Assembly (NCBI GenBank): GCA_021785515.1
Contig: JAJYEX010000008.1
Coordinates: 1-64,000, forward strand
DNA length: 64,000 nucleotides
Direction: 5' to 3'
From: Pseudomonadota bacterium
Lineage (GTDB): Bacteria; Pseudomonadota; Gammaproteobacteria; Acidiferrobacterales; UBA6901
Both the position numbers and the translations under genes were made by a program. Below are positions 7,095 to 63,929 of the stretch, piece after piece (position 1 is the stretch's first letter; each line of letters starts with the position of its first letter). Below the pieces are notes generated by a model. The model was not told the DNA's origin, did not search any database, and saw nothing but the letters and a program-made list of their open reading frames with translations.

Positions 7095-9299
<2,205 letters not shown>

Positions 9300-9348
9300 T
9301 TCTGGAGGATCGACGTCAGGGAAGTAAAGGCAGCGTAAGTGGCAGTGC

Positions 9349-9380
9349 GGGGCGCGCGGGTCAGTTTTCCTGCGCGCCCC
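9349..9380 (+). terminator. Stem-loop downstream of katG
   Basis: GGGGCGCGCGGG (9349-9360) pairs with CCTGCGCGCCCC (9369-9380) through 12 bp including one G-U pair, around the loop TCAGTTTT. No T run follows, so this is either a weak terminator or an mRNA-stabilising hairpin. Confidence 0.4.
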
Positions 9381-9392
9381 ACAGGTCCTGAC

Positions 9393-9563
9393 GTTATCCT
9401 TTTCCTTCAGCGTTCCAGAAACGTCATCGGTGATTCTGGTAATGACGGGAGACGACATTTCAAAATCATCGGTGTAGTGCGAAAGAATGCGGTCCATATC
9501 ATGGGTGTTCCACGATTCAATCCATTCTTTGGCGAAATGTTCCGCTATCGCCTGGGTGATCAT
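9393..9563 (-). pseudogene. NTF2/SnoaL-like protein, N-terminal fragment
   Basis: The minus strand encodes MITQAIAEHFAKEWIESWNT, then HDMDRILSHYTDDFEMSSPV. This is the first helix and strand of SnoaL/NTF2-like fold proteins. Homology ends after about 57 residues (SGTLKEKD), and the frame then runs antisense into the end of katG. The protein would normally be 120-150 residues. It is interpreted as a gene truncated by rearrangement at the katG side. Confidence 0.5.
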
Positions 9564-9649
9564 GGGCAGGATCCCTGATGACAATTCGGTGACTAAAATG
9601 CCATATCACTCTGGGCCAACGCCATAAAAATTGGTGGGTTCGTTCCGAC

Positions 9650-9700
9650 GGCCGGAATCGCAATCAGAGGATCGGGGTTTAAATCCCCCTGCCGGTTCCA
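9650..9700 (+). other. tRNA 3'-end-like remnant
   Basis: AATCAGAGGATC is followed by a T-arm-like CGGGG-TTTAAAT-CCCC and then TGCCGGTTCCA, which ends in CCA at 9700. A matching 5' acceptor strand (ACCGGCA) is absent upstream, so no complete tRNA is present. Remnants like this are left when integrative elements recombine at a tRNA 3' end. It marks the boundary between the accessory zone and the conserved genes. Confidence 0.35.
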
Positions 9701-9859
9701 TTGGCTCCATAAAAGCAATGGCTTAGAGGAGGTTGGTATGAATACAGGAACGTTGCGTGTGGCGACATACGGTCGAGTCCGCATCGCGGATATATGATAT
9801 TCTGGCCTCGAAAAATAGGCGCACAACCCATCGAGAATTGCGCTTAAGGAGAGGCTGCT

Positions 9860-11524
9860 GTGAACAACTTTAGTCGATATGCGCGTGCGGCTGTTGGAGC
9901 CCTGATCCTGCCGGTTCTTCTGGTTGCCTGCGGCGGGGGCGGGAGCAGCGGAAGTTCAACGAGCTCGGCGAGCCCCGCAAACGGCACCGTCGAGGCCGCC
10001 ATTACCGACGCTCCCAGCAGCAACTTCGACCATGTTTGGGTCACGGTGGAGGGGATCTGGTTCCATACCAGTTCATCGGCCGAACCACAGCAGGCTGGCT
10101 GGATAAAGTATTCTCTGCCAGCCCCTGTCACGGTAGACCTGACGACGCTCACCAACGGCGAACTTGACGATGTCTTCCCGGACATTTCGCTGCCGGCGGG
10201 TGACTACCAGCAGATACGCCTGATGCTCGCTCCGACGGAAGATGGTCTGACTGCATCGGCCAAATCAGACGGTCTCTTCTACAACAACGAGGTGGACTAT
10301 ACCGGTTCAAGCTCGACTGTAGCTGCGCCGCTGCGCATTCCGAGCCCCAGGTCGGGCATCAAGCTGGTTGGCAACTTCCAGGTTGCGCCGGGCGGTGCGC
10401 TCGACATCGCGATCGACTTCGATATCGGCCACCAGGTGGTCGAGTACGCCATCGGACAAGGCGTCGAGTTCATGCTGAAGCCGGTCCTGACCTACTTCGA
10501 CCTCAAGAACACCGGCGCCATCATTGGCCAGATCGATCCCAATAGTATCCAAAGCAGCACCAATACGAGCGGCGGTTACAACTTCATCGTCAAGGCCGAG
10601 CAGCTGAGTGCGGATGGCTTGTATCACACCGTGGTCCGTGCCACGACGGTGGATTCGGACGGCAATTTCATCCTTTATCCGATTCCTGTCGCCGCGGGAA
10701 CGACGAAGGACTATGACATCGTCCTGCGCGGCCGCAACGTGGACACGTACATCGTGAAGGGCGTGCCCGTCACAGGGGGCACGACCCCGACGCGGGGTGC
10801 GACGCCGGTGCAGTCGACGCCCATCACGATGACCCTGGACAGCGAGTACACCGCCAATTACACGAGTGCCGTAAGCCCGACCGGCGCGTGGACGAGTTTT
10901 TACCAGATGATTCCAGGCGACACGATCCCCTATCAAATCCGCTACCGGCATCTGGATCCGTTCACCGGCGTGTTTCTCAACCCGATACCGCTGTCGACCG
11001 GACCGCTGTATTGGGGTACCTATAATAATGGCCAGCCCGTTTCCTTTGCGCCGGTTACGCCCGAGGAAGGTGCGGCTACGTTCGATGTCGTGGCGAACTC
11101 GCTCTTTTATACCCGGACGCCCGACGGAACCGTCGCCGGGACCGCGAACACGCTTTCCAGCCTCTCTCCGGTGACGCTTACTATTCCGCCGCCCGCGGTG
11201 AGCGATTCCATCACGGGGACCATCACCGAAAACGGGAATGTGTCGGGCATGAGTCTCGATACGGCCTACCTGGTTGTGGTGCGTGGCGGATTCGTGGTCG
11301 ACACCCAGCCCGAGAGCAGCTTACTTGCTGGCGGAAACCCTTCTTTCAAACTCTCGAACCTGCCGGGCGGATCCAGCAGCGTGACGATCCCGGGCGCCTA
11401 TTACACGCTGTATGTTATTGCCTGGAACAGCACCAGCGTGGACGACTCTACCGTGGTTACCCGCTCTACGGTGGTTGATCTTACCCAGGGAAGCGCGACC
11501 GGCGTGACGCTGACCCTGCAGTAG
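9860..11524 (+). CDS. DUF4382-domain lipoprotein
   Basis: A 554-residue exported lipoprotein. A type II signal peptide ends in the lipobox LVAC (Cys24), followed by a flexible Gly/Ser linker. A DUF4382 domain follows at about residues 42-195 (GTVEAAITDAPSSNFDHVWV at its start). The remaining 350 residues are predicted beta-rich repeats, Thr/Ser/Pro rich. The start is GTG 9860 behind AAGGAGAGG. Function is unknown; family members are cell-surface or periplasmic proteins. It stands alone and is closed by a strong terminator. Confidence 0.8.
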   Translation: MNNFSRYARAAVGALILPVLLVACGGGGSSGSSTSSASPANGTVEAAITDAPSSNFDHVWVTVEGIWFHTSSSAEPQQAGWIKYSLPAPVTVDLTTLTNGELDDVFPDISLPAGDYQQIRLMLAPTEDGLTASAKSDGLFYNNEVDYTGSSSTVAAPLRIPSPRSGIKLVGNFQVAPGGALDIAIDFDIGHQVVEYAIGQGVEFMLKPVLTYFDLKNTGAIIGQIDPNSIQSSTNTSGGYNFIVKAEQLSADGLYHTVVRATTVDSDGNFILYPIPVAAGTTKDYDIVLRGRNVDTYIVKGVPVTGGTTPTRGATPVQSTPITMTLDSEYTANYTSAVSPTGAWTSFYQMIPGDTIPYQIRYRHLDPFTGVFLNPIPLSTGPLYWGTYNNGQPVSFAPVTPEEGAATFDVVANSLFYTRTPDGTVAGTANTLSSLSPVTLTIPPPAVSDSITGTITENGNVSGMSLDTAYLVVVRGGFVVDTQPESSLLAGGNPSFKLSNLPGGSSSVTIPGAYYTLYVIAWNSTSVDDSTVVTRSTVVDLTQGSATGVTLTLQ

Positions 11525-54308: not shown

Positions 54309-54665
54309 ATGAAAAAATCTATCCGCGCCACCTTGATCGGTGCTGTTGCCGTGCTGGCTACCGGAATTGCCGTACTGCCAGTAGCCGCTCAGGCGGCGAC
54401 GCCGGCCAATCCCTGCTCTGCCAAGAGCATGGGGATGAAGAAGGCGCCCATGAAGAAGACCATGATGCACAAGGGCAACACGGCGATGAAGGCTCGTGTA
54501 ATGGCCATCCAGACGGCGTTGAACAAGAACGGCGCCATGCTGAAGGCCGATGGCATGATGGGCATGAAGACCCGTGCGGCCCTGAAGAAGTTCCAGTCCA
54601 AGCACGGCCTGAAAGCCACTGGCTACGCCAACAAGGCCACGCTCAAGGCGCTGGGCGTCAAGTAA
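54309..54665 (+). CDS. Small exported Met/Lys-rich peptidoglycan-binding protein
   Basis: A 118-residue protein with a clear signal peptide (cleavage after AQA, about residue 29). A Met/Lys-rich linker at 40-60 (MGMKKAPMKKTMMHKG) follows, and then a PG_binding_1 domain at about 55-118 (RVMAIQTALNKNGAMLKADG, then TRAALKKFQSKHGL). It probably attaches to the cell wall; the Met-rich stretch could bind metals such as copper, which is speculation. It stands alone with a hairpin after its stop. Confidence 0.8.
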   Translation: MKKSIRATLIGAVAVLATGIAVLPVAAQAATPANPCSAKSMGMKKAPMKKTMMHKGNTAMKARVMAIQTALNKNGAMLKADGMMGMKTRAALKKFQSKHGLKATGYANKATLKALGVK

Positions 54666-55120: not shown

Positions 55121-56311
55121 TCAGAACAGCAGCTGAAGGCCAAGGGTTTCCTGATTGTAGTTCTGCAGCGCGGGATCGATCGGATCCTGCTTGTCAAAGG
55201 AGATGCGGGCGTACTCGCCGCTGACCTTGAGCTGCTGGCCGTCGATGTAATAGTTGAAGCCGACGCTGTTCCATTTCTGGTCGTCATAACCGGACGTCAG
55301 GTTGTACTGGGATTTCTCGTGACGCAGAAAGAACTGCAGCCGGCCGACACCGATCCTGCTCGGGAACAGGTATCCGGCCTTGACGTAATAACCCTGGAGC
55401 TGCGAGGTAATCGGCAGGTTCGGGTCGGGATAGGCGCTGTTGATGGCGTTTCCAGTACTGTAGTGCATGTAAGCCGCCGACGCCGTATAGGTGCCGCTGC
55501 GAAACGGGTACTCGAAGAAGATGTCGGTTGTCCAGGCCTCGTAGTTCTTGGCGTCGGTCTGGGTCGCATAGTCGCCCCAGACGACATCCGGTTGATACTC
55601 GTAGGACGCGCCAATCGTGAGCACCTTCATGGTGCCGAGGTACGTTCCTTCGTAGCCGTATCCGTATTCGGGATCGAGCAGGCTGGCGGTTAGCCTGCCT
55701 GTCACCATCGATTCGCTCTTGGGGACACCATCACCCTGCCGTCCGTTGGATATCATGATGCGGTACTGATACATCGCGTTGTGAAGGTTGCCCCACGCGG
55801 CCACACCGGTATCACGGCTTGCGGCGAATGGGGCATAGGCAAGCACTTCGGCGCGGTCCATGGTAAGCGGACCAAAGCAATCCTCGAGATTTTCCCGGGT
55901 GAACGGCACCTTGAATTTCCCGACTATGAACTGAAGGGCGTCGTTTGCCTCGAGTGTGATGTAGGCATCCTCGTAAAACATGCTGCGGTTGTTGTATCCC
56001 TCTTCGCCGTCAACAGGCGCCTCGGTATCGACGAAAAATCCGATGTCGTTATTGTACTGTCCGCTCAGTACTATGCGGTTGCGCCGCAGGTAGAAGTTGT
56101 TCAGGCCGGCGGAATCCGTTGACGAGGTGTATCCCCGACTCTGGTACCAGGCCTGTACATAGTAGTCCAGGGTCACGTAGCTCTGTCCGGAATGCAGGGT
56201 TACTCCGGCTATCGCCGGTCGGGCAGCTGCAGCGATGACCAGAGCCCCGAGGGGCGCGATGCTGCGCCGGACCAACTTCGCCACGCGGCCTTTCTTGAAC
56301 GAATTTTTCAT
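55121..56311 (-). CDS. Outer-membrane porin, OprO/OprP-like
   Basis: A 396-residue outer-membrane beta-barrel. A signal peptide (about 35 residues, ending near PAIAG) is followed by alternating aromatic beta strands (YVTLDYYVQAWYQSRG at the start) and a terminal Phe (LGLQLLF) as barrel proteins require. The motifs NFYLRRNRIVLSGQYNNDIG and FIVGKFKVPFTRENLE are typical of phosphate-selective OprO/P-type porins. ATG 56311 is chosen because the signal peptide begins there. It is the last gene of a run with two cytochrome-associated genes, only 19 bases after the three-heme cytochrome, so it may admit anions or sulfur compounds for that system. Confidence 0.85.
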   Translation of the reverse strand: MKNSFKKGRVAKLVRRSIAPLGALVIAAAARPAIAGVTLHSGQSYVTLDYYVQAWYQSRGYTSSTDSAGLNNFYLRRNRIVLSGQYNNDIGFFVDTEAPVDGEEGYNNRSMFYEDAYITLEANDALQFIVGKFKVPFTRENLEDCFGPLTMDRAEVLAYAPFAASRDTGVAAWGNLHNAMYQYRIMISNGRQGDGVPKSESMVTGRLTASLLDPEYGYGYEGTYLGTMKVLTIGASYEYQPDVVWGDYATQTDAKNYEAWTTDIFFEYPFRSGTYTASAAYMHYSTGNAINSAYPDPNLPITSQLQGYYVKAGYLFPSRIGVGRLQFFLRHEKSQYNLTSGYDDQKWNSVGFNYYIDGQQLKVSGEYARISFDKQDPIDPALQNYNQETLGLQLLF

Positions 56312-56330
56312 GATCGGCTCTCCTCCCGTA

Positions 56331-56861
56331 TTATTTCTGTTGAGGCGCACTGACTTTCATGTATCCCGCCACGAGCTTGCTCACGTCTCCATTCTGGTGA
56401 CAGGATGCGCAAGCCTTCTGGGGCACCTTGAGCGGATCCGCGATCAGGCCGGCGTGTGCCAGGGATTTCCTGAGAATCCACGGACTTCCTCCGTGGCAGC
56501 CGACGCAGTCGTTATTCACCGGTTCATGATCCGTGTGCCATGGACTGTCGCTGACGGCTGGACCGCGGCCGCTGCTATGGCACTTGAAGCACGACGAAGC
56601 CCCCATTCCGCAGGCATTGGCCGCCGCGATCGGAGAGCAGGTGGCGAAGGATTCGTGAATGTTGCTGATGGCACTTGCCCCCCACCCGTTCTTGTGAACA
56701 GCTGGCATGCGGTGTGTGTGCAGGGCGGAGCGTGGCATTGGCGGCGTGGCAGACAGCAGCGACCAGACCACGGCGACGACCGTCAGGATCGTGATGCACG
56801 TAGCGTAGAACAGGATCGAGTGCGAGGCGCGTTTGAAGGTTCTGATGAAGACCTGGCTCAT
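56331..56861 (-). CDS. Membrane-anchored three-heme cytochrome c
   Basis: A 176-residue periplasmic cytochrome tethered by one N-terminal helix at about residues 16-38, reminiscent of NapC/NirT-type anchors. There are three heme c motifs: CFKCH (91), CVGCH (119) and CASCH (151), with several extra His as possible distal ligands. It probably passes electrons between the quinone pool or periplasm and an outer partner. Its start overlaps the stop of the upstream 94-residue gene by ATGA, and the porin gene follows it. The exact redox partner is unknown. Confidence 0.85.
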   Translation of the reverse strand: MSQVFIRTFKRASHSILFYATCITILTVVAVVWSLLSATPPMPRSALHTHRMPAVHKNGWGASAISNIHESFATCSPIAAANACGMGASSCFKCHSSGRGPAVSDSPWHTDHEPVNNDCVGCHGGSPWILRKSLAHAGLIADPLKVPQKACASCHQNGDVSKLVAGYMKVSAPQQK

Positions 56862-57142
56862 TTTTTCCTCCTTTTCTTGCTATGTGCTGTGGGTTCGGCA
56901 GTCCTGGAGAATGATTCGGACTGGTCGAGCCTCCGTTTTGCGGCCTCGATGTCCTTTTCCGTGGGACCCGACCCGCACATGCAGATCGGTCCCTTGCGGA
57001 AATACGGTCGGGTCCTGGTTGTGGCAGCCTTCGTCGGTGCGGCAGCAGTGGACGCCGCGGTCGCGCAGGCGGCGGGTACGGCGAGGACCAGCAGTCCAGA
57101 CGCTGCAAGGATTCGCCATGTTCGGATCGGGTTTGTGTCCAT
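56858..57142 (-). CDS. Small exported protein with a CMCGSG motif
   Basis: A 94-residue protein with a signal peptide in the first 30 residues. An Ala/Thr-rich linker leads to a short motif PICMCGSGPTEKDIEAAKRR (Cys54, Cys56) and a strongly basic tail (KKRRKK). No family is recognised. It is the first gene of the cytochrome-porin unit and is translationally coupled to the three-heme cytochrome by ATGA. A sigma-54 promoter lies 39-55 bases upstream. The Cys-X-Cys pair could bind a metal or form a redox link. Confidence 0.65.
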   Translation of the reverse strand: MDTNPIRTWRILAASGLLVLAVPAACATAASTAAAPTKAATTRTRPYFRKGPICMCGSGPTEKDIEAAKRRLDQSESFSRTAEPTAHSKKRRKK

Positions 57143-57181
57143 TGCGTAGCCACGCGCTCAAATGTCTCGCGCGTCATGCAA

Positions 57182-57197
57182 AGCACATTGCATGCCA
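57182..57197 (-). promoter_or_regulatory. Sigma-54 promoter of the cytochrome-porin unit
   Basis: Read on the minus strand the sequence is TGGCATGCAATGTGCT, with GG at 57196-57195 and GC at 57184-57183 exactly ten bases apart. This fits the -24/-12 consensus TGGCACG-N4-TTGCW. The start would be about 30 bases before the 94-residue gene. It shares 14 of 16 bases with the promoter of the rhodanese gene. Confidence 0.65.
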
Positions 57198-57293
57198 GCA
57201 GGGAGGCTACGAAAAAACAGTTAGTTAGGCGGGAATGGCCGGAGTGGGGCGTTGCATTAAGTCGCTTTTACCGGCTCTGCCGTTGCGGGGCTT

Positions 57294-58559
57294 TCAATTT
57301 GCAACAAGCCGTCGTGAGTGCCCGTTTATCGCGGGTATGGGCACGGTGAGGTTGACCAGCTGGTAACGGGCGGCCACGACCTGGGCAAAGGCCTGGCGCA
57401 GGAGGGAGAGCGTGGCCTTGTCGTAGTGCTCCGGGTGCAGAAGTTCGTGATGGAACAGGCGTTCGTAGTGCGCGCCGGGAGATACCTCGATGCGCAACCG
57501 GATCTTCGTGGCCGGGCGTGGCGCCAACGCCAGACGCGCGGCCAGCACGCTCGCGCCACCAGGCGGAATGCGCGTGTCGAAGTACTCATGGGTCAGGCGC
57601 AGGTTGACGCTTCGCCCTATGGTCTGCCGGGCGATTTCTCGGGCGTCGCGGCCGCCAGGACCGACCGCGTAAAGGGTGACGTATACCTTGGGAACCAGAT
57701 AGGTCGGAAAGTCATGTCCAATGTGGACGCTGCGGATGACCGCACGGGCCTCGGCCATGTGGTGGTCCACCCGGGTGACGCGCAGGGAGATCCGCAGGCC
57801 CTGTCTTACCATCGCCGGATCGTGGATGCCGCGCCACAGATGCCGCCGGTCGGGCATGTGGCAAGTCTGGCAGGTGACGTGCTCGTGCGCGAAGCGGCTG
57901 GCTCGCCACTCTGCATAGGTGTTCTCGAACGGCTTCCCATCCAGGCTCCGACCCCAGGGCGGAGACTGGTGGCAGGTAGCGCAGAAGCGGCTGTGCTGGA
58001 AGGCCGGTGTTGCCGTAAAACCGTCGTGCGGCAGGCCCGGGGTGTTTCCGGCCGGCATGCCCGGAGATGGTGGCGGTCCGAACCGATGTTGCCTGCGAAC
58101 ATGGCAGGCAGCGCACGTCAGTCCCTGATGGAACAGCTGTTGGCCGACGTACGCCGGTGGAGGTGTCGACGGTCTGTCCGGCCAGCCAAATTCCATCGCC
58201 GCCAGTGCCTTCTGTTCGGCCAGCGGAGCGTGGCAGCGCATGCAGCGGTTGGCTTGTGTCTGGCTCATGATGCGGAACTGCCAGAGCAAGCCAGGCCCGA
58301 TGGCGCGGCTGTGCAGGCTCGTGCGCCAGTCTTCGTACTGCTGCTGGTGGCATTCGCCGCAGGATTGCGGGGACAGGGATCCCGTGAGCGCCGAGTAGCC
58401 CTTGGGCGGCGGGCCTTCCGGGGCCAGAGGGTATATCCAGTGCTGTGCCAGGAAGCGGCTGATCGGTCCTGGCGGGGTTTTTCCGTGGCTGGCTGGCGGC
58501 GATTGCCAGGCGGCTGCTCCCGTGACCAGCACTGCCAGCACCAGGATAAGAAGTCGCAT
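57294..58559 (-). CDS. Exported five-heme cytochrome c
   Basis: A 421-residue periplasmic or surface cytochrome. A signal peptide (MRLLILVLAVLVTGAAA) is followed by five heme c motifs: CGECH (67), CMRCH (106), CAACH (149), CATCH (193) and CQTCH (230). Residues 245-421 lack Cys and look like a beta-sandwich domain. The heme arrangement resembles cytochrome c554 and related multiheme families. ATG 58559 is chosen for the signal peptide; GTG 58580 is an alternative with poor ribosome-binding-site spacing. It has its own sigma-70-like promoter and sits between the rhodanese gene and the cytochrome-porin unit. Confidence 0.85.
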   Translation of the reverse strand: MRLLILVLAVLVTGAAAWQSPPASHGKTPPGPISRFLAQHWIYPLAPEGPPPKGYSALTGSLSPQSCGECHQQQYEDWRTSLHSRAIGPGLLWQFRIMSQTQANRCMRCHAPLAEQKALAAMEFGWPDRPSTPPPAYVGQQLFHQGLTCAACHVRRQHRFGPPPSPGMPAGNTPGLPHDGFTATPAFQHSRFCATCHQSPPWGRSLDGKPFENTYAEWRASRFAHEHVTCQTCHMPDRRHLWRGIHDPAMVRQGLRISLRVTRVDHHMAEARAVIRSVHIGHDFPTYLVPKVYVTLYAVGPGGRDAREIARQTIGRSVNLRLTHEYFDTRIPPGGASVLAARLALAPRPATKIRLRIEVSPGAHYERLFHHELLHPEHYDKATLSLLRQAFAQVVAARYQLVNLTVPIPAINGHSRRLVAN

Positions 58560-58623
58560 CGGGTTGGCTGAGCCGGACACGCCTTCTTTTCTCCATGCCT
58601 CGACGATGGACTAGCAGTCCGCC

Positions 58624-58755: not shown

Positions 58756-60444
58756 CTATCCGCAGGGGTTGGCTGGTGCCGAACCGCCGCTTGAGGACGA
58801 GCTGCTGCTGCTTCCACCGCCCGTCTTGTACGCCTTGTCGGCATCAATGATGGCATTGCCCGTCGTGGAATAGGGGGATATGGTCGGCGGAACTTCCACG
58901 ACCGACGGGGGATTGTAGTTCAGCGAGTCCGTCGCCAGGTCCGTGCGCCACGGGGAATCCGCGGGCATGTTGAAGTTGCCGCTCATGTTCTGCGCGTAAC
59001 CGAGTTCCCCCCATTCCACCCATGCCGCGTCGTAGAACTTGACGGGGTAGCCCAGCACCAGGCCTGCGGAAATGCCCGTGACCATGGCCCGGTAGGTGGT
59101 GCGGCAGTGGGTGTAGATGACTTCTCCCGGCCTGTAGCCGATGGCATCAATTGTGACGCCGTTAGGCGGATGTTCTACGGTGCCAAGCGGGTCCGTGATG
59201 AGCTGTTGCAGCCAGGCCTTGTCGAGGTAGCCATAAGACGCATCCTTGCCGTTTACGGACCCGTCACCGTTCAGGTCACCCGGGACGGTGCTGGTGCTAT
59301 TGTGGTTGCCGAAGCTGTTGTTGGCGTACGGGTTGGAGGCCGCGCCCGGTCCGTTGTAGTAGTCGTTCTGGTAGAGCAGATCGATGTAGTTGAGGTTTAC
59401 CGCGCCGCGGATATGGCCCTCGAAAGCGACGTAACAGGGGCCGCCCGTCGATGTCACGCAGTTCGTCTGCCCAGTGGTTTGTTCCTGCACGCCGTTGTAT
59501 TCCGCGGGTGAGCGCGCATCCCAGATGAAGGCGCCACCCTGGGGCGTGTATTTGCCGAGGGCGACGGAGAGCATCTCCTGAAGGCTCGCCTGCAACGCGG
59601 TGTTGTCCACCGGAATTTCACGTACCGAGAAGGTTCCGGAACCCGGGGGCGCATCCGCCGTCGAGGAAAAATAGCCGGTGCCGGCTGTATGTACGCCGGC
59701 GCTGAAAGCCGCGTAGCCTCCGGTCTCGTTGAGGACGTTATCGATGCCACCGTCAAGAATCGCCAGGTGGGTGTGGCTCACCCCCCAGTAGCGGAACATG
59801 TACCAGCCGCGTCCGATCAGCATGTCCGCCAGGGGGCTTCCCTGGCCCATCGCAAAAACGATCATGTCCTTGGTCGGATCGATGTTGTACTCCTTCAGGA
59901 AGGCATCCATGGATGGTCCGTCGAGCACCATGCTGATCGTCGTAATCACGCCATCGTTACGCGCCATGACCCACTGCGATGGGCCAATATCGTAGGTAAA
60001 GATGTTGTTGTTGTCGTGGGCGACGTACTCCATCCCGGCAAAGCCGATGCCGCCGTTGGAAGCGACGCTGCCGCCGGAAATGCTGTAGCCGGTTTGGCAG
60101 CCTCCGGTAGCGAGGTACGCCGTGCAGCCCGCGCCGCCGGTCTGCAAGATGACCAGGTGCCCGGTGATGCCGGGCGGGCGGTTTGCCGTCCAGTTGTCTA
60201 TCCAGTGCATCAGGGTCTGGCCCGTGATCAGTCCGTTGACGTTCGCGTTGTAGTCATCCGCCGAGGTCTGGACAGCCGCGATCTGTGCGGCCGTATGCAC
60301 AACGATGCCGGTCCCGCCGTCGGTAGTGTCGTGCCCGCCGGAGCAGCCGCCGACGATAAAGAGCATCGCGGCAATTGCGGACATGGCGGTACGCCAACCG
60401 GCACTGGCGGCAGTGGGTGCCCCGCAAAAACTCTCTTTTTTCAT
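58756..60444 (-). CDS. Large lipoprotein with tandem rhodanese-like domains
   Basis: A 562-residue exported protein. A lipoprotein signal (FIVGGC, Cys34) anchors it. A degenerate rhodanese-like domain at about 90-235 (IVFAMGQGSPLADMLIGRGW) lacks a catalytic Cys. The second domain (IWDARSPAEYNG at 308-318, GHIRGAVNLNYIDLL at 344-357) carries the active loop Cys447-RTTYR. Between motif and loop is a calcium-type EF-hand loop, DLNGDGSVNGKD (390-401). The C-terminus has a run of eight Ser and ends PANPCG. It probably transfers sulfane sulfur from thiosulfate or similar donors outside the cytoplasm. ATG 60444 is preferred over the longer frame since the signal peptide starts there. A sigma-54 promoter precedes it. 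Confidence 0.85.
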   Translation of the reverse strand: MKKESFCGAPTAASAGWRTAMSAIAAMLFIVGGCSGGHDTTDGGTGIVVHTAAQIAAVQTSADDYNANVNGLITGQTLMHWIDNWTANRPPGITGHLVILQTGGAGCTAYLATGGCQTGYSISGGSVASNGGIGFAGMEYVAHDNNNIFTYDIGPSQWVMARNDGVITTISMVLDGPSMDAFLKEYNIDPTKDMIVFAMGQGSPLADMLIGRGWYMFRYWGVSHTHLAILDGGIDNVLNETGGYAAFSAGVHTAGTGYFSSTADAPPGSGTFSVREIPVDNTALQASLQEMLSVALGKYTPQGGAFIWDARSPAEYNGVQEQTTGQTNCVTSTGGPCYVAFEGHIRGAVNLNYIDLLYQNDYYNGPGAASNPYANNSFGNHNSTSTVPGDLNGDGSVNGKDASYGYLDKAWLQQLITDPLGTVEHPPNGVTIDAIGYRPGEVIYTHCRTTYRAMVTGISAGLVLGYPVKFYDAAWVEWGELGYAQNMSGNFNMPADSPWRTDLATDSLNYNPPSVVEVPPTISPYSTTGNAIIDADKAYKTGGGSSSSSSSSGGSAPANPCG

Positions 60445-60495: not shown

Positions 60496-60511
60496 AGCAG
60501 TTTGCATGCCA
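60496..60511 (-). promoter_or_regulatory. Sigma-54 promoter of the rhodanese lipoprotein gene
   Basis: On the minus strand the sequence is TGGCATGCAAACTGCT, with GG (60510-60509) and GC (60498-60497) ten bases apart. The predicted start lies about 40 bases before the ATG at 60444. Confidence 0.65.
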
Positions 60512-60772: not shown

Positions 60773-60788
60773 CGGCATGGAGTTTGCT
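60773..60788 (+). promoter_or_regulatory. Sigma-54 promoter of the TusA-YeeE-TusA-DsrE unit
   Basis: CGGCATGGAGTTTGCT has GG at 60774-60775 and GC at 60786-60787 with ten bases between, and the -12 reads TTTGCT as in the consensus. The start would be near 60799, about 36 bases before the first ATG. Confidence 0.7.
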
Positions 60789-60834: not shown

Positions 60835-61185
60835 ATGAAATGTCACAAGGCATGGTTTCATCTGCCGCCGTCCTTCAGGCGCTGTTGGGCTTCACAGGGT
60901 CGGCCGGTGGCGGATTCAGGAAAGCGAGTGATACTGCCGGTGTTCGGCCCGGTCACCGTGACCGAATCGCTGAATTTCCTGGGTGTCGACTGCCTGCGTA
61001 CCAACCTGTTGACCAAGAAGGCAATGGGGTTGGCCGGATGTGGCGACGTGCTGGAAATTATCACTGACAATCCGAGCTCGGCTGAGACGATTCCGTTCAT
61101 GCTGCCGAACTACGGCTGTTTGTATCTGGCAACGATTCATGAAGAGCGGTACCGGGTCCTCTACGTGAGGAAGGTCATGGCATAG
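60835..61185 (+). CDS. TusA-like protein with altered active site
   Basis: A 116-residue protein. From residue 42 on it has the TusA/SirA fold pattern: VTESLNFLGVDCLRTNLLTK, then GDVLEIITDNPSSAETIPFM. Canonical TusA carries C-P-x-P; here the motif is Cys53-L-R-T, so the sulfur-carrying Cys is kept but both Pro are lost. The first 40 residues are unlike TusA and the real start may be later, at a GTG near residue 26. It lies 20 bases before the transporter gene. It may be a specialised sulfur carrier or an adaptor of the transporter. Confidence 0.65.
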   Translation: MKCHKAWFHLPPSFRRCWASQGRPVADSGKRVILPVFGPVTVTESLNFLGVDCLRTNLLTKKAMGLAGCGDVLEIITDNPSSAETIPFMLPNYGCLYLATIHEERYRVLYVRKVMA

Positions 61186-61205
61186 ACAAGGGGAGGCAGG
61201 TTCCG

Positions 61206-62672
61206 ATGGCGAGCACCGAGAGCGAAATGGGTGCAGCACTGAAAAATACGGAATCGGCCCAGCGCCGGCTGGAGATCAAAAACCAGATATGGGCGTTTGG
61301 GATTGTGGGATTTTTTGCGGTGATTACCGTCTGGAGCTGCGCCGTCGACGTCCGCTATCTGTACTTGGCAACCTACATATGGTTTGGACTCATCTACGGC
61401 ATGGCTCTTCAGTACGGGCGCTTTTGCATGGCGTCCGCCTTCCGCGATCTGTTCGCGGTGGGCGTGCCGCGCATGACCGTCGGTATTCTCATCGCGCTGG
61501 CGCTATTCAGCGTGGTCGCATCCGTCGTGACCGGTGCTGGCCAGAGCACTTTCCATCCGCTGCCGTACGGCTACCAGAATGTCATCGGCGGAATCCTGTT
61601 CGGGACCGGAATGGTATTCGCCGGCGGTTGTGCCTCCGGCTCACTGTACAAGAGCGGGGAGGGGACGGTGGCGTCCTGGATCGTCATTCTGTCCCTGAGT
61701 TTTTCGCAGACATGGTTCGCAATGGCGGGTGGATGGCTGAACCGCCTAGTGCCGGCATCGTGGACAAAGTCTGCGGCCGCCAAGAACCTGCCGGCGGTAC
61801 TTAATCCCACCAATGGCTGGTACAACCAGTATCTGGCAGGCTACATCTGGAACCTCCCCGCCACCACCGTGGCCGTGCTGACACACATCAAGAACCAGTT
61901 TCTGGCGGCGTTCGTCGGCGACGCGCTGATCAATACCATCGTGCCGGCGATTTTCATACTGGCGGTGGTGTACGTATTCTGGTATCGCAAATCCCACATA
62001 AAAAACATGCTGAAAGCCGGCAAAAAAGGCTGGCGAGCCGAGGTGGCCGGTTACTGGTCCATGATCGCTGCCTCGCGGCGCACCGCCATCGCCGGACTCA
62101 TTATCGGGGTGGCGGCGGGCCTGCACATGTGGGTGACCGAGGGCTTGAGGCACGTGTTCGGGGTGCTCAACGCAGGCGAACTGTTGCAGGCCATGGGCCA
62201 CACTTCGGGCCTGTCGATACAGGACACGGTCTTTGATCCCGGGTACTGGTATATCACCACCCAGGAGGCGCAGTGGTCGGGCTGGCTCCTGCATGTGCTT
62301 GGCGTGCACGACATGCGCAACATCTTCTACGGACTGCAAAACGGCGTGCCCAATCCGCTGCTCAATCCGCCGGGATGGATGTCGATATCCATCATTCTCG
62401 GGTCATCAGTAATGGCGCGGCTAAGCAACGAGTTCCGGCTCAAGCTTCCGTCCCTGGAGACTGCGATCTGGGCGCTGATTGGCGGCGCGCTTATGGGGAT
62501 CGGGGCGCGCATAGGAATAGGTTGCAACATCGGCGCCTTCTTCATTCCGGTGGCAAACGGCGACCCGTCCGGTTGGCTGTTCGGTCTCGGCCTGGGAGTG
62601 GGGGCCTACATTTGTGTGCGATTCTACGACTGGTGGATAAACCGCCGGATGGCGAAAGAAGACATATTTTAA
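61206..62672 (+). CDS. YeeE/YedE-family sulfur-compound transporter
   Basis: A 488-residue inner-membrane protein with about ten predicted helices and two internally related halves. Conserved Cys residues match the thiosulfate transporter YeeE (TsuA): Cys74 (YGRFCMASAFRD), Cys142 (FAGGCASGSLYKSGEG) and Cys440 (GIGCNIGAFF). In that family they relay thiosulfate through the membrane. The ATG 61206 follows AGGGGAGGCAGG. Flanking TusA-type genes on both sides support import of thiosulfate or sulfane sulfur for cytoplasmic carriers. Confidence 0.88.
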   Translation: MASTESEMGAALKNTESAQRRLEIKNQIWAFGIVGFFAVITVWSCAVDVRYLYLATYIWFGLIYGMALQYGRFCMASAFRDLFAVGVPRMTVGILIALALFSVVASVVTGAGQSTFHPLPYGYQNVIGGILFGTGMVFAGGCASGSLYKSGEGTVASWIVILSLSFSQTWFAMAGGWLNRLVPASWTKSAAAKNLPAVLNPTNGWYNQYLAGYIWNLPATTVAVLTHIKNQFLAAFVGDALINTIVPAIFILAVVYVFWYRKSHIKNMLKAGKKGWRAEVAGYWSMIAASRRTAIAGLIIGVAAGLHMWVTEGLRHVFGVLNAGELLQAMGHTSGLSIQDTVFDPGYWYITTQEAQWSGWLLHVLGVHDMRNIFYGLQNGVPNPLLNPPGWMSISIILGSSVMARLSNEFRLKLPSLETAIWALIGGALMGIGARIGIGCNIGAFFIPVANGDPSGWLFGLGLGVGAYICVRFYDWWINRRMAKEDIF

Positions 62673-62691
62673 ACCAACTGGAGAACGAGCG

Positions 62692-62946
62692 ATGGCGGTC
62701 CAGTTCAGGAGACAATCGGAGGGCGTTTACTTTCTAGACGTCAAGGGCTACGTGTGCCCGCATCCGCAGTTATATACGAAAAAATCTCTGGAAAAAATGA
62801 AGCCGGGCGACGTGCTTGATCTGGTGTTCGATAATCCATCGTCAGCTGAATCGATAAATTCAATGTGTGAGGCGGCTGGAAACGAGATCGTAAGCAAGGT
62901 CAAGGATGCAAGTGGGGCCATGGTATGGCGCATCAAGAAGGGGTAG
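62692..62946 (+). CDS. tusA: TusA-family sulfur carrier protein
   Basis: An 84-residue sulfur carrier with the canonical Cys22-Pro-His-Pro motif (DVKGYVCPHPQLYTKKSLEK) and the following GDVLDLVFDNPSSAESI. TusA proteins accept persulfide sulfur from rhodaneses and DsrE-type proteins and pass it on. It is 19 bases after the transporter gene. YeeE and TusA are often found together. Confidence 0.92.
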   Translation: MAVQFRRQSEGVYFLDVKGYVCPHPQLYTKKSLEKMKPGDVLDLVFDNPSSAESINSMCEAAGNEIVSKVKDASGAMVWRIKKG

Positions 62947-62967
62947 CGGAACCGGCGAGGTAATACG

Positions 62968-63087
62968 ATGAAAACCAGTCTGTGGATAATCATTCTTATC
63001 GTCGTCGGCTTCATCAGTTTTCTGATGGGGTATTCGCGTCCTCATCCAGCGCTGCCCCCGGCCTCGTCGTGGAGCCAGAACCGTTAA
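62968..63087 (+). CDS. 39-residue single-pass membrane peptide
   Basis: ATG 62968, behind GGCGAGG, encodes MKTSLWIIILIVVGFISFLM, then GYSRPHPALPPASSWSQNR. One membrane helix spans about residues 5-21, with a Pro-rich tail. It is too short for most annotation pipelines. Its place 21 bases after tusA inside the operon and its good ribosome-binding site support it as real. Function is unknown. Confidence 0.55.
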   Translation: MKTSLWIIILIVVGFISFLMGYSRPHPALPPASSWSQNR

Positions 63088-63159
63088 TTCGGGACCGAGC
63101 TTCAGGCGCAGGGTTTGGTCAGCATGCGATAAGTGCCCGCCAAGGCAGATGGAGGTGAC

Positions 63160-63456
63160 ATGCGTCTGGGCGTAACCATCACCAGCGACCGCTTCGGCAG
63201 CTACGCAACCGGATTGCTTGCCGCAGCCTCGGCTCGCGGCTGGGAATGCCGCTGCTTCCTTACCCATACCGGAACGCGCGTGCTTCGATACAAACCGTTC
63301 TGCGACCTCGTGGAATCCGGTCGGGTATCCACCACCGTGTGTGAGCTCAGTTGGGAACGGTTTGAAGGCGGCGCACTGCCGCCGTCCGTCATAATGGGCG
63401 GACAGTACCAGAACGCCGAGCTTGTGCACCAGTGCGATAAAGTCGTGGCCTTTTAG
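63160..63456 (+). CDS. DsrE-like small sulfurtransferase-family protein
   Basis: A 98-residue protein with a Rossmann-like alpha/beta start (RLGVTITSDRFGSYATGLLA) typical of the DsrE/F fold, followed by ECRCFLTHTGTRVL. Cys occurs at several places, including CDLVESG and CDKVVAF. ATG 63160 is behind GGAGGTG. DsrE-type proteins take sulfur from TusA, so its place after tusA fits. The active Cys cannot be fixed from sequence alone. Confidence 0.6.
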   Translation: MRLGVTITSDRFGSYATGLLAAASARGWECRCFLTHTGTRVLRYKPFCDLVESGRVSTTVCELSWERFEGGALPPSVIMGGQYQNAELVHQCDKVVAF

Positions 63457-63498
63457 TCCGTCGCGATTGTCTGTCAGGGCAGAAAGAGCGGGTGACGA

Positions 63499-63747
63499 AT
63501 GAAACAGGTGCTTGTAATCGCGAAATTCGACCAGGCTGAGGCGATGCGGGTCGCGGCTGGATTAACGCTGCTGAACGACCATATCCGGATCCAGGTGATT
63601 GGCAAGCTGAAAGACAGTCAGGAGGTCGCAGAGCAAAAGGAAGTGCTGGATTTCGCGGAAGTTCCCTGTGAGGTGCTGGACGCCGCGGACCCGCTTCCCG
63701 ATATTGCGCAGAGCATTCTGACAGCTGACACAGTATTTATCCTGTGA
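63499..63747 (+). CDS. Small DsrE/DsrH-like protein
   Basis: An 82-residue protein (MKQVLVIAKFDQAEAMRVAA, then LLNDHIRIQVIGKL) with an alpha/beta order and a C-terminal ILTADTVFIL like DsrE/DsrH ends. One Cys (VPCEVLDA) is present at about residue 57. It lies in the sulfur-carrier operon and overlaps the next gene by GTGA. Family assignment is tentative. Confidence 0.5.
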   Translation: MKQVLVIAKFDQAEAMRVAAGLTLLNDHIRIQVIGKLKDSQEVAEQKEVLDFAEVPCEVLDAADPLPDIAQSILTADTVFIL

Positions 63748-63929
63748 ATCAAACCAGAACCATTCTGATCATTCATCCGGTCGCCGATGAATGCATCACG
63801 TCCACGCACAACCTGGCCGATCACCTGAAAGAAATCGGCGCGCAGGTGTGGGTGCGCGTCATGGACACGTCTTACGATGAAATGCTCGATGCGATGGAGA
63901 GGGCCGACACCATCGTGTGCTGGAGATAA
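63744..63929 (+). CDS. Small DsrE-like operon protein, 61 residues
   Basis: The start is GTG 63744, overlapping the stop of the previous gene. The product MNQTRTILIIHPVADECITS, then THNLADHLKEIGAQVWVRVM, has a beta-alpha-beta outline. Cys residues occur near 17 and at the C-terminus (VCWR). No firm family is recognised. The coupled translation suggests that it acts with the 82-residue protein, perhaps as a heteromer as in DsrEFH. Confidence 0.45.
   Translation: MNQTRTILIIHPVADECITSTHNLADHLKEIGAQVWVRVMDTSYDEMLDAMERADTIVCWR

Follow-up and report, generated by a model that had tools for sequence, protein, structure and literature searches.

The extHIJKL cluster of Geobacter sulfurreducens encodes a rhodanese lipoprotein (ExtH), a porin (ExtI), a small periplasmic protein (ExtJ) and a pentaheme cytochrome of the ExtKL family (PMC6148476; here and throughout, statements on cited papers refer to the accessible portions of their texts). 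The YTD, or yeeE-tusA-dsrEFH type II, set of Desulfobacterota, Nitrospirota and cable bacteria, which includes YedE, TusA, DsrE-related and other small proteins, is known from several studies (PMC9751629, PMC8780430, PMC13047784, PMC12998232) and has recently been reinterpreted as a dsrEFH type II cluster serving sulfur oxidation (PMC13293266). In Desulfurivibrio dismutans, a porin (RS05170) beside exported sulfurtransferase lipoproteins and YeeE/YedE has been proposed to aid sulfur import (PMC12142623). Here we describe a twelve-gene locus that joins such components, located at one end of a 64,000-nucleotide stretch (hereafter, the window) of contig JAJYEX010000008.1 from a gammaproteobacterium of the order Acidiferrobacterales. 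The locus consists of an envelope arm of five genes (rhodanese, pentaheme, small CxC protein, triheme and porin, in the order of minus-strand transcription), a YTD-like arm of five genes on the plus strand, divergent from the rhodanese (tusA, yedE, second tusA, a conserved hypothetical protein (CHP) gene and a dsrE-like gene, 60835-63747), and genes for a kinase and an NtrC-type regulator.

With extHIJKL, the window shares a porin that passes the ExtI equivalog model, an ExtH-like rhodanese lipoprotein and an ExtKL-family pentaheme; its small, probably exported CxC protein, which matches no family, may correspond to ExtJ. It differs in that the rhodanese and the pentaheme fall below the equivalog cut-offs, selenocysteine is lacking, a triheme and YTD-type genes are added, there is no counterpart of the 12-heme ExtM or the 10-heme ExtN, and the locus has a kinase and an NtrC-type regulator. 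With the YTD clusters, it shares YedE and TusA (both above cut-off), but the set is joined to a porin-rhodanese-cytochrome arm, and for the dsrE-related and conserved hypothetical genes the window has conserved small genes in the expected places that match no family. The accessible text on D. dismutans names no cytochromes or regulators with its porin and does not state that the porin is ExtI (PMC12142623). Like MtrCAB and the porin-cytochrome conduits (PCC), the locus has a barrel gene adjoining multiheme cytochromes, but the predicted barrel is narrower and the lipoprotein is a rhodanese rather than a multiheme cytochrome; with the phosphate-selective OprO/P porins, the porin shares the PF07396 domain and the fold. 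The features are as follows.

55121-56311, minus strand: ExtI-type porin (PF07396; NF040900 porin_ExtI; AlphaFold2 (AF2) model; OprP/OprO fold)
56331-56861, minus strand: triheme c-type cytochrome with a hydrophobic N-terminal segment (176 aa; three CxxCH motifs)
56858-57142, minus strand: small, probably exported CxC protein of 94 aa (profile match beside the triheme in 46 of 51 loci)
57182-57197, minus strand: sigma-54-like -24/-12 site, TGGCATGCAATGTGCT, scoring 14.7 of 15.4, about 40 nt before the small-triheme-porin unit
57294-58580, minus strand: pentaheme c-type cytochrome of the ExtKL/c552 family, without selenocysteine (five CxxCH motifs; 428 aa from GTG)
58756-60444, minus strand: rhodanese-like lipoprotein, ExtH-like (PF00581; lipobox Cys35; active-site Cys448)
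60496-60511, minus strand: sigma-54-like site, TGGCATGCAAACTGCT, scoring 15.4 of 15.4, about 50 nt before the rhodanese
60773-60788, plus strand: weaker sigma-54-like site, CGGCATGGAGTTTGCT, scoring 14.4 of 15.4, before the tusA-yedE unit
60835-61185, plus strand: TusA-like protein 1 (PF01206, 29.9 bits, cut-off 28.6)
61206-62672, plus strand: YedE/YeeE sulfur transporter (PF04143, 3.2e-44)
62692-62946, plus strand: TusA-like protein 2 (PF01206, 3.1e-17)
63133-63456, plus strand: conserved small protein (CHP) of the YTD-like set (same place in L038, L039 and 44 of 51 loci)
63499-63747, plus strand: DsrE-like small protein (same place in L038, L039 and 44 of 51 loci)
64219-67136 of the same contig (C22), beyond the window edge: PAS histidine kinase and response regulator (receiver, Sigma54_activat and HTH_8 domains)

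An earlier note on this DNA had singled out the triheme, the pentaheme and a porin starting 19 bases downstream of the triheme. The minus-strand open reading frames (ORFs) and CxxCH counts bear this out: the porin ORF spans 55121-56350, with its ATG at 56311, 19 bases after the triheme stop, and the small CxC gene overlaps the triheme start by 4 bases; the first ATG of the pentaheme, at 58559, is the end given in that note. The trio is real but does not stand alone, being part of the twelve-gene locus; the rhodanese lipoprotein, the small CxC protein and the sulfur-transport genes from 60835 onward had gone unmentioned.

With modest confidence, and on the strength of the gene set and of predicted structures, we favor the possibility that the locus captures external sulfane sulfur, admits it via ExtI and passes it via YedE and TusA to Dsr, with sulfur in the periplasm as a redox partner of the cytochromes. 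The rhodanese lipoprotein would use its invariant cysteine to accept sulfane sulfur from sulfur, polysulfide or thiosulfate outside the cell; the OprP-like ExtI-type barrel would admit small sulfur species to the periplasm, where the pentaheme and the anchored triheme would exchange electrons with intermediates of sulfur and with the pool of c-type cytochromes; YedE would bring sulfur through the inner membrane for delivery by TusA/DsrE-type carriers to a reverse-running Dsr; and the kinase and the NtrC-type regulator would turn on the set through sigma-54 promoters. Directly established are the gene set, its conservation, the family assignments, the predicted barrel and cytochrome folds, the promoter-like sites and the SoxY, DsrA and sigma-54 genes; the substrate, the surface location, the directions of electron flow and of Dsr and all interactions we infer. 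Given that the genome encodes SoxY and two DsrA proteins above the cut-off, sulfur oxidation through Sox and reverse Dsr is plausible for the organism. The two dsrA genes (C18:44199-46493 and C11:635666-637937 of the genome, G000) each lie beside a weaker DsrA-like match, perhaps DsrB.

The whole arrangement recurs, with unchanged gene order, in a same-genus genome (L038), with ten proteins 42-86% identical, and in L039, which belongs to the same order and whose contig is cut inside the porin. Another same-genus genome (L040) contains a decayed copy at 8233-10582, with an intact pentaheme and a broken rhodanese, and has no match for the porin, the triheme, the small gene or the YTD-like genes. 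Among 369 genomes of the class (the window's own included), the rhodanese profile detected eight other genomes, and the porin profile recovered the same eight, all with E-values of at most 1e-137, whereas no other porin did better than 1e-31; the chance of such an overlap in 8 of the 368 other class genomes is 1.3e-16. All five envelope genes are present in each of the eight, with YTD-like genes beside them in seven, whereas in the eighth (G669) the stretch starts immediately ahead of the rhodanese, where the contig ends; in G606, YedE is present only as fragments, and the porin and the rhodanese lie on two contigs in G377. A YedE search yielded at least 833 bits in eight genomes, G606 with its fragments being the one porin-rhodanese genome not among them, and 525-696 bits in nine genomes without this porin or rhodanese; it is a weak test of linkage because all of the eight top genomes but G669 supplied rows of the profile, which makes their scores partly built in. 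A search of plasmids for the rhodanese gave no match.

We then consider named genomes, which were scanned with the porin alignment alone; the best 80 of the 108 places were retained, none of them titled Geobacter. Because the scan patterns select this porin subtype, the counts that follow show what travels with the porin rather than how common the set is. Thio- genus names are carried by 19 of the 80 loci, and many others come from metagenome-assembled genomes (MAGs) without a genus; the rest include Gallionella, Rubrivivax, Solimonas, Hydrocarboniphaga, Cellvibrio and a Nitrospirae MAG. Hidden Markov models built from the window and the class-genome loci were run on all open frames of these loci, and a census of 51 was obtained by dropping five repeats of seed genomes (L099, L102, L115, L143, L158) and 25 loci with short flanks (less than 7 kb upstream or less than 3.5 kb downstream of the porin), one locus belonging to both groups; L177 is part of this census. 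YedE, the second TusA, the rhodanese and the porin are present in all 51 loci, the pentaheme and the triheme in 50 each, the small gene in 46, the kinase and the regulator in 45 each, and the first TusA, CHP and DsrE in 44 each. All twelve genes occur in 40 loci, and 34 loci have one identical order on one strand; a variant has the YTD-like arm divergent, as in the window. The full set is found in Thiohalobacter thiocyanaticus Hrh1 (L111).

Six loci, from Solimonas, Hydrocarboniphaga and Cellvibrio, have a rearranged short form (rhodanese-small-triheme-porin-YedE-TusA-pentaheme) without the first TusA, CHP, DsrE and the regulators. Such a form would suit a system that detoxifies or scavenges reactive sulfur species rather than one serving energy metabolism, but the full set in Thio- named loci, such as that of T. 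thiocyanaticus, and the two cytochromes, which suggest a respiratory link, make this explanation very unlikely in our view.

The rhodanese matches PF00581 at 1.3e-5 (26 bits, cut-off 22.2) and the ExtH model NF040901 at 74.4 bits (E 8.7e-21), below the cut-off of 200, the two being homologous. All 31 aligned rhodaneses match the ExtH model at E of 1e-5 or lower and have the lipobox Cys35 and the active-site Cys448 (numbering of the 563-aa query). The residue that follows the lipobox cysteine is never Asp in the 31 proteins, which under the Lol rule favors the outer membrane as the probable site of the rhodanese lipoprotein.

The earlier note had called the porin OprO/P-like and, doubting a simple conduit, had rated substrate entry at least as likely as electron conduction. 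The label agrees with the PF07396 match (49.1 bits, cut-off 20.9) and with the fold but is too coarse, given that the porin passes the porin_ExtI equivalog NF040900 (326.3 bits, cut-off 150); all 50 aligned porins match this model at E of 1e-10 or lower. The AF2 model, obtained with 50 sequences (predicted local distance difference test, pLDDT, 87.8), has 16-17 strands (17 segments, the first one short), and its best solved fold matches are OprP and OprO (Z 29.4; root-mean-square deviation (rmsd) 3.1 over 318 and 2.9 over 312 residues, respectively), which backs the doubt. Relatives came from fold comparison only, as a profile search of the PDB with the porin found no sequence relative (one chance match, E 0.56). 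MtrB-type barrels are absent among the 50 matches listed in the fold comparison, which is no proof of absence. MtrB is a 26-strand barrel that holds MtrA; with only 17 predicted strand segments in the barrel considered here, an MtrA-like plug would not fit, so that the barrel size, which the earlier note had proposed as a check, speaks against a cytochrome plug as far as prediction reaches.

These features bear on the possibility that the locus is a counterpart of extHIJKL acting as an outer-membrane electron conduit, in which the flow of electrons would link cytochromes of the periplasm with Fe(III) or mineral sulfide outside the cell, the rhodanese being an exposed lipoprotein. The similar parts list and the ExtI equivalog match are compatible with such a conduit, and it is kept alive by Acidiferrobacter thiooxydans, which reduces Fe(III) with S0 (PMC8790237) and whose kinship to the window's organism is a guess. 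We nevertheless consider it unlikely, given the predicted 16-17-strand barrel with its OprP/OprO match, the attachment of YedE and TusA in 51 of 51 porin-selected loci, the intact Fe(III) citrate reduction after extI deletion in Geobacter (PMC5877670), and loci from the phylum of the Nitrospirae MAG. In that phylum, 12 of 148 genomes match ExtI, 11 of them above the cut-off, and 10 loci of 3.8-21 kb each were read (L177, L189-L197), leaving out the fragment-bearing G778 and G755. In seven of the ten, the rhodanese adjoins the porin and no ORF with at least two CxxCH motifs occurs in the stretch read; three of these (L177, L190, L191) also carry YedE-TusA, the kinase and the regulator. Thus, the porin and the rhodanese are a pair able to do without neighboring cytochromes and, together with the barrel size, this leads us to liken the locus to ExtHIJKL plus a sulfur-import set rather than to MtrCAB. 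Two other loci of this phylum (L195, L196) have neither a rhodanese nor multiheme ORFs beside the porin. A further one (L193, 6856-11940), with an ExtI porin, two 5-heme ORFs and one 8-heme ORF but without a match to the rhodanese, bears a closer resemblance to a true conduit.

The CxxCH codon pattern occurs 13 times in the 64 kb (shuffled mean 4.74, standard deviation 2.39; 13 reached in 1 of 100 shuffles), and eight of these matches fall in the two cytochrome genes, three in the triheme and five in the pentaheme. That the motifs are not due to chance follows from their retention in named relatives, with three CxxCH in all 69 triheme ORFs and five in 62 of 63 long pentaheme ORFs. A single hydrophobic segment at the N-terminus of the triheme was recognized by eye, and the CGMGASSCFKCH region of this protein is conserved in 3 of 3. 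The small CxC protein contains the motif RLRF..GPxCMCGxGxxExxI and has no Pfam or NCBIfam match.

All 36 aligned pentahemes have five CxxCH motifs and match the ExtKL model NF040886 at E of 1e-5 or lower; the window protein scores 52.9 bits, below the cut-off of 250. A lipobox-like start is present, by a crude pattern, in 10 of the 36 but not in the window copy. The best PDB sequence match is MccSep (9WT8), a multiheme selenoprotein (about 1e-7 with the single sequence, 1.6e-11 with a profile), and the predicted two-domain fold (AF2, pLDDT 89.3) is that of the pentaheme c552 of Thermochromatium tepidum (5ZE8; Z 22.7, rmsd 3.3 over 306 aligned residues); both share five hemes and a C-terminal beta domain with the window pentaheme, which is 18-23% identical to 5ZE8. 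MccSep is absent among the matches listed in the fold search (structure library to April 2026). A paper on cable bacteria groups ExtKL with a pentaheme family resembling c552 (PMC11976967). The GHSIPDGU segment of MccSep aligns with GHxFPTY(L/M) of the pentahemes; accordingly, the selenocysteine site of MccSep has Leu or Met here, and neither selenocysteine nor cysteine. A phylum-wide search matched pentahemes in 57 of 299 genomes (own included). Those outside the class are about 40% identical to the window protein, and in 22 of 29 loci taken from other genomes (L003-L031) a frame with at least three NPC motifs is present in the 2.5-4.2 kb covered per locus; several of these frames carry one CxxCH, which makes for a second, different context of this cytochrome family that has no part in the argument for the window locus.

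The missing selenocysteine is relevant to another possibility, namely, that the locus takes up and reduces selenite, tellurite or another chalcogen oxyanion, with YedE and TusA serving selenium instead of sulfur. The NCBIfam names of ExtI, ExtH and ExtKL point that way, as does YedE itself, which among NCBIfam models scores highest with a selenium-metabolism YedE (156.9 bits, short of the cut-off of 350; the thiosulfate-transporter TsuA models come next at 111.2 bits, short of the cut-off of 400). In G. sulfurreducens, moreover, the loss of extI severely impairs selenite and tellurite reduction (PMC5877670, PMC6148476). However, with a pentaheme devoid of the MccSep selenocysteine, Thio- names on 19 of the 80 fetched loci, and SoxY and DsrA in the window's own genome, we regard such a system as quite unlikely.

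Putative sigma-54 sites were scored on both strands against a sigma-54 consensus (maximum 15.4). Only three sites in the 64 kb score at least 14.7, and two of these precede the small-triheme-porin unit and the rhodanese; one of the nine sites scoring at least 14.4 precedes the first tusA. In 74 named loci (L177 was excluded from these site counts), there are 111 sites of at least 14.7, compared to a shuffled mean of 18.6, and 93 of the 111 lie directly before tusA1 (37), the small gene (40), the rhodanese (12) or the triheme (4). At the 14.4 threshold, a site precedes 46 of 52 tusA1 genes and 45 of 63 small genes, but of the 181 sites at this level 71 have other positions, compared to a shuffled mean of 58.6. 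Combined with the NtrC-type regulator encoded here and the sigma-54 gene of the genome, these sites predict a self-contained regulon. ATTG/CAAT inverted repeats are enriched upstream of the sigma-54-like sites, the gapless form occurring in 20 of 190 stretches compared to 1.8 after shuffling; as a lead only, such a repeat could be a binding site of the regulator.

Several observations weigh against sulfur acquisition as the function of the locus. It is patchy in the genus, with no rhodanese match in two of the four same-genus relatives searched and a decayed copy of the locus in one, and L100, with an RpoC 95% identical, lacks matches for the rhodanese and the first tusA while the other eight proteins match. 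The hosts of the short form, Solimonas, Hydrocarboniphaga and Cellvibrio, are not obvious sulfur lithotrophs. Beyond residue 35, the porin has 26 Arg and Lys versus 40 Asp and Glu, with no sign of an anion-selective pore. A sigma-54-like site of its own (at least 14.4) is found for only 13 of 59 rhodanese genes in the named loci, although the rhodanese may need no promoter of its own because it follows dsrE on the same strand in most loci. In D. dismutans, proteomics did not detect the YedE numbered near the porin (RS05145; PMC12142623). In Geobacter, ExtI has been tied experimentally to selenite and tellurite, and a strain that retains extHIJKL only is still capable of partial Fe(III) and Mn(IV) oxide reduction (PMC5877670, PMC6148476), on account of which electron export and oxyanion reduction retain the limited probability given above.

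The two last genes of the YTD-like arm are assigned by context: CHP has no family above the cut-off in the Pfam and NCBIfam scans, and the DsrE-like protein, for which there is no Pfam or NCBIfam match, is so named from its gene position. After the dsrE-like gene, a 62-codon open stretch (63741-63929, plus strand) resembles short frames in the same place in L098 and L111; it is possibly a third DsrEFH-type subunit, with an uncertain start codon placement. Downstream of the porin, at 54309-54665 (plus strand), lies a gene for a small PG_binding_1 protein with a ANPCSAKSMGMKK stretch, which has same-side matches in L038 and L040.

The YTD set and the import proposal for porin, sulfurtransferase and YedE are already known. 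The word "porin" does not occur in the main texts of five YTD papers (PMC9751629, PMC13047784, PMC8780430, PMC12998232, PMC13293266), and in the open-access papers searched we found no account of the joined twelve-gene locus with two cytochromes or of its sigma-54 control. Nor did we find there the ExtI identity of the locus in sulfur oxidizers, beyond a listing, in the accessible text, of ExtI homologues from Thiohalobacter and Thioalkalivibrio without further study (PMC5877670).

The locus described here bears on how insoluble or polymeric sulfur enters through the bacterial outer membrane, and on the role of ExtH, ExtI and ExtKL in Geobacter, for which a metal conduit and a selenite porin are both considered. 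In it, ExtI, a rhodanese lipoprotein and two cytochromes are linked with an import set of the YedE/TusA/DsrE type that has a regulator of its own. It thus offers a definite set of genes to knock out and a promoter code open to testing, with T. thiocyanaticus Hrh1 among the carriers and the short form in Solimonas and Hydrocarboniphaga strains. Tentatively, we suggest that the ExtI/ExtH pairs may at root be a device for the acquisition of sulfane sulfur, or chalcogen; the twelve-gene, sigma-54-controlled version might then be an envelope entry route for solid or polymeric sulfur in many beta- and gammaproteobacterial sulfur oxidizers, and the selenite or metal role of the Geobacter Ext proteins would be derived.

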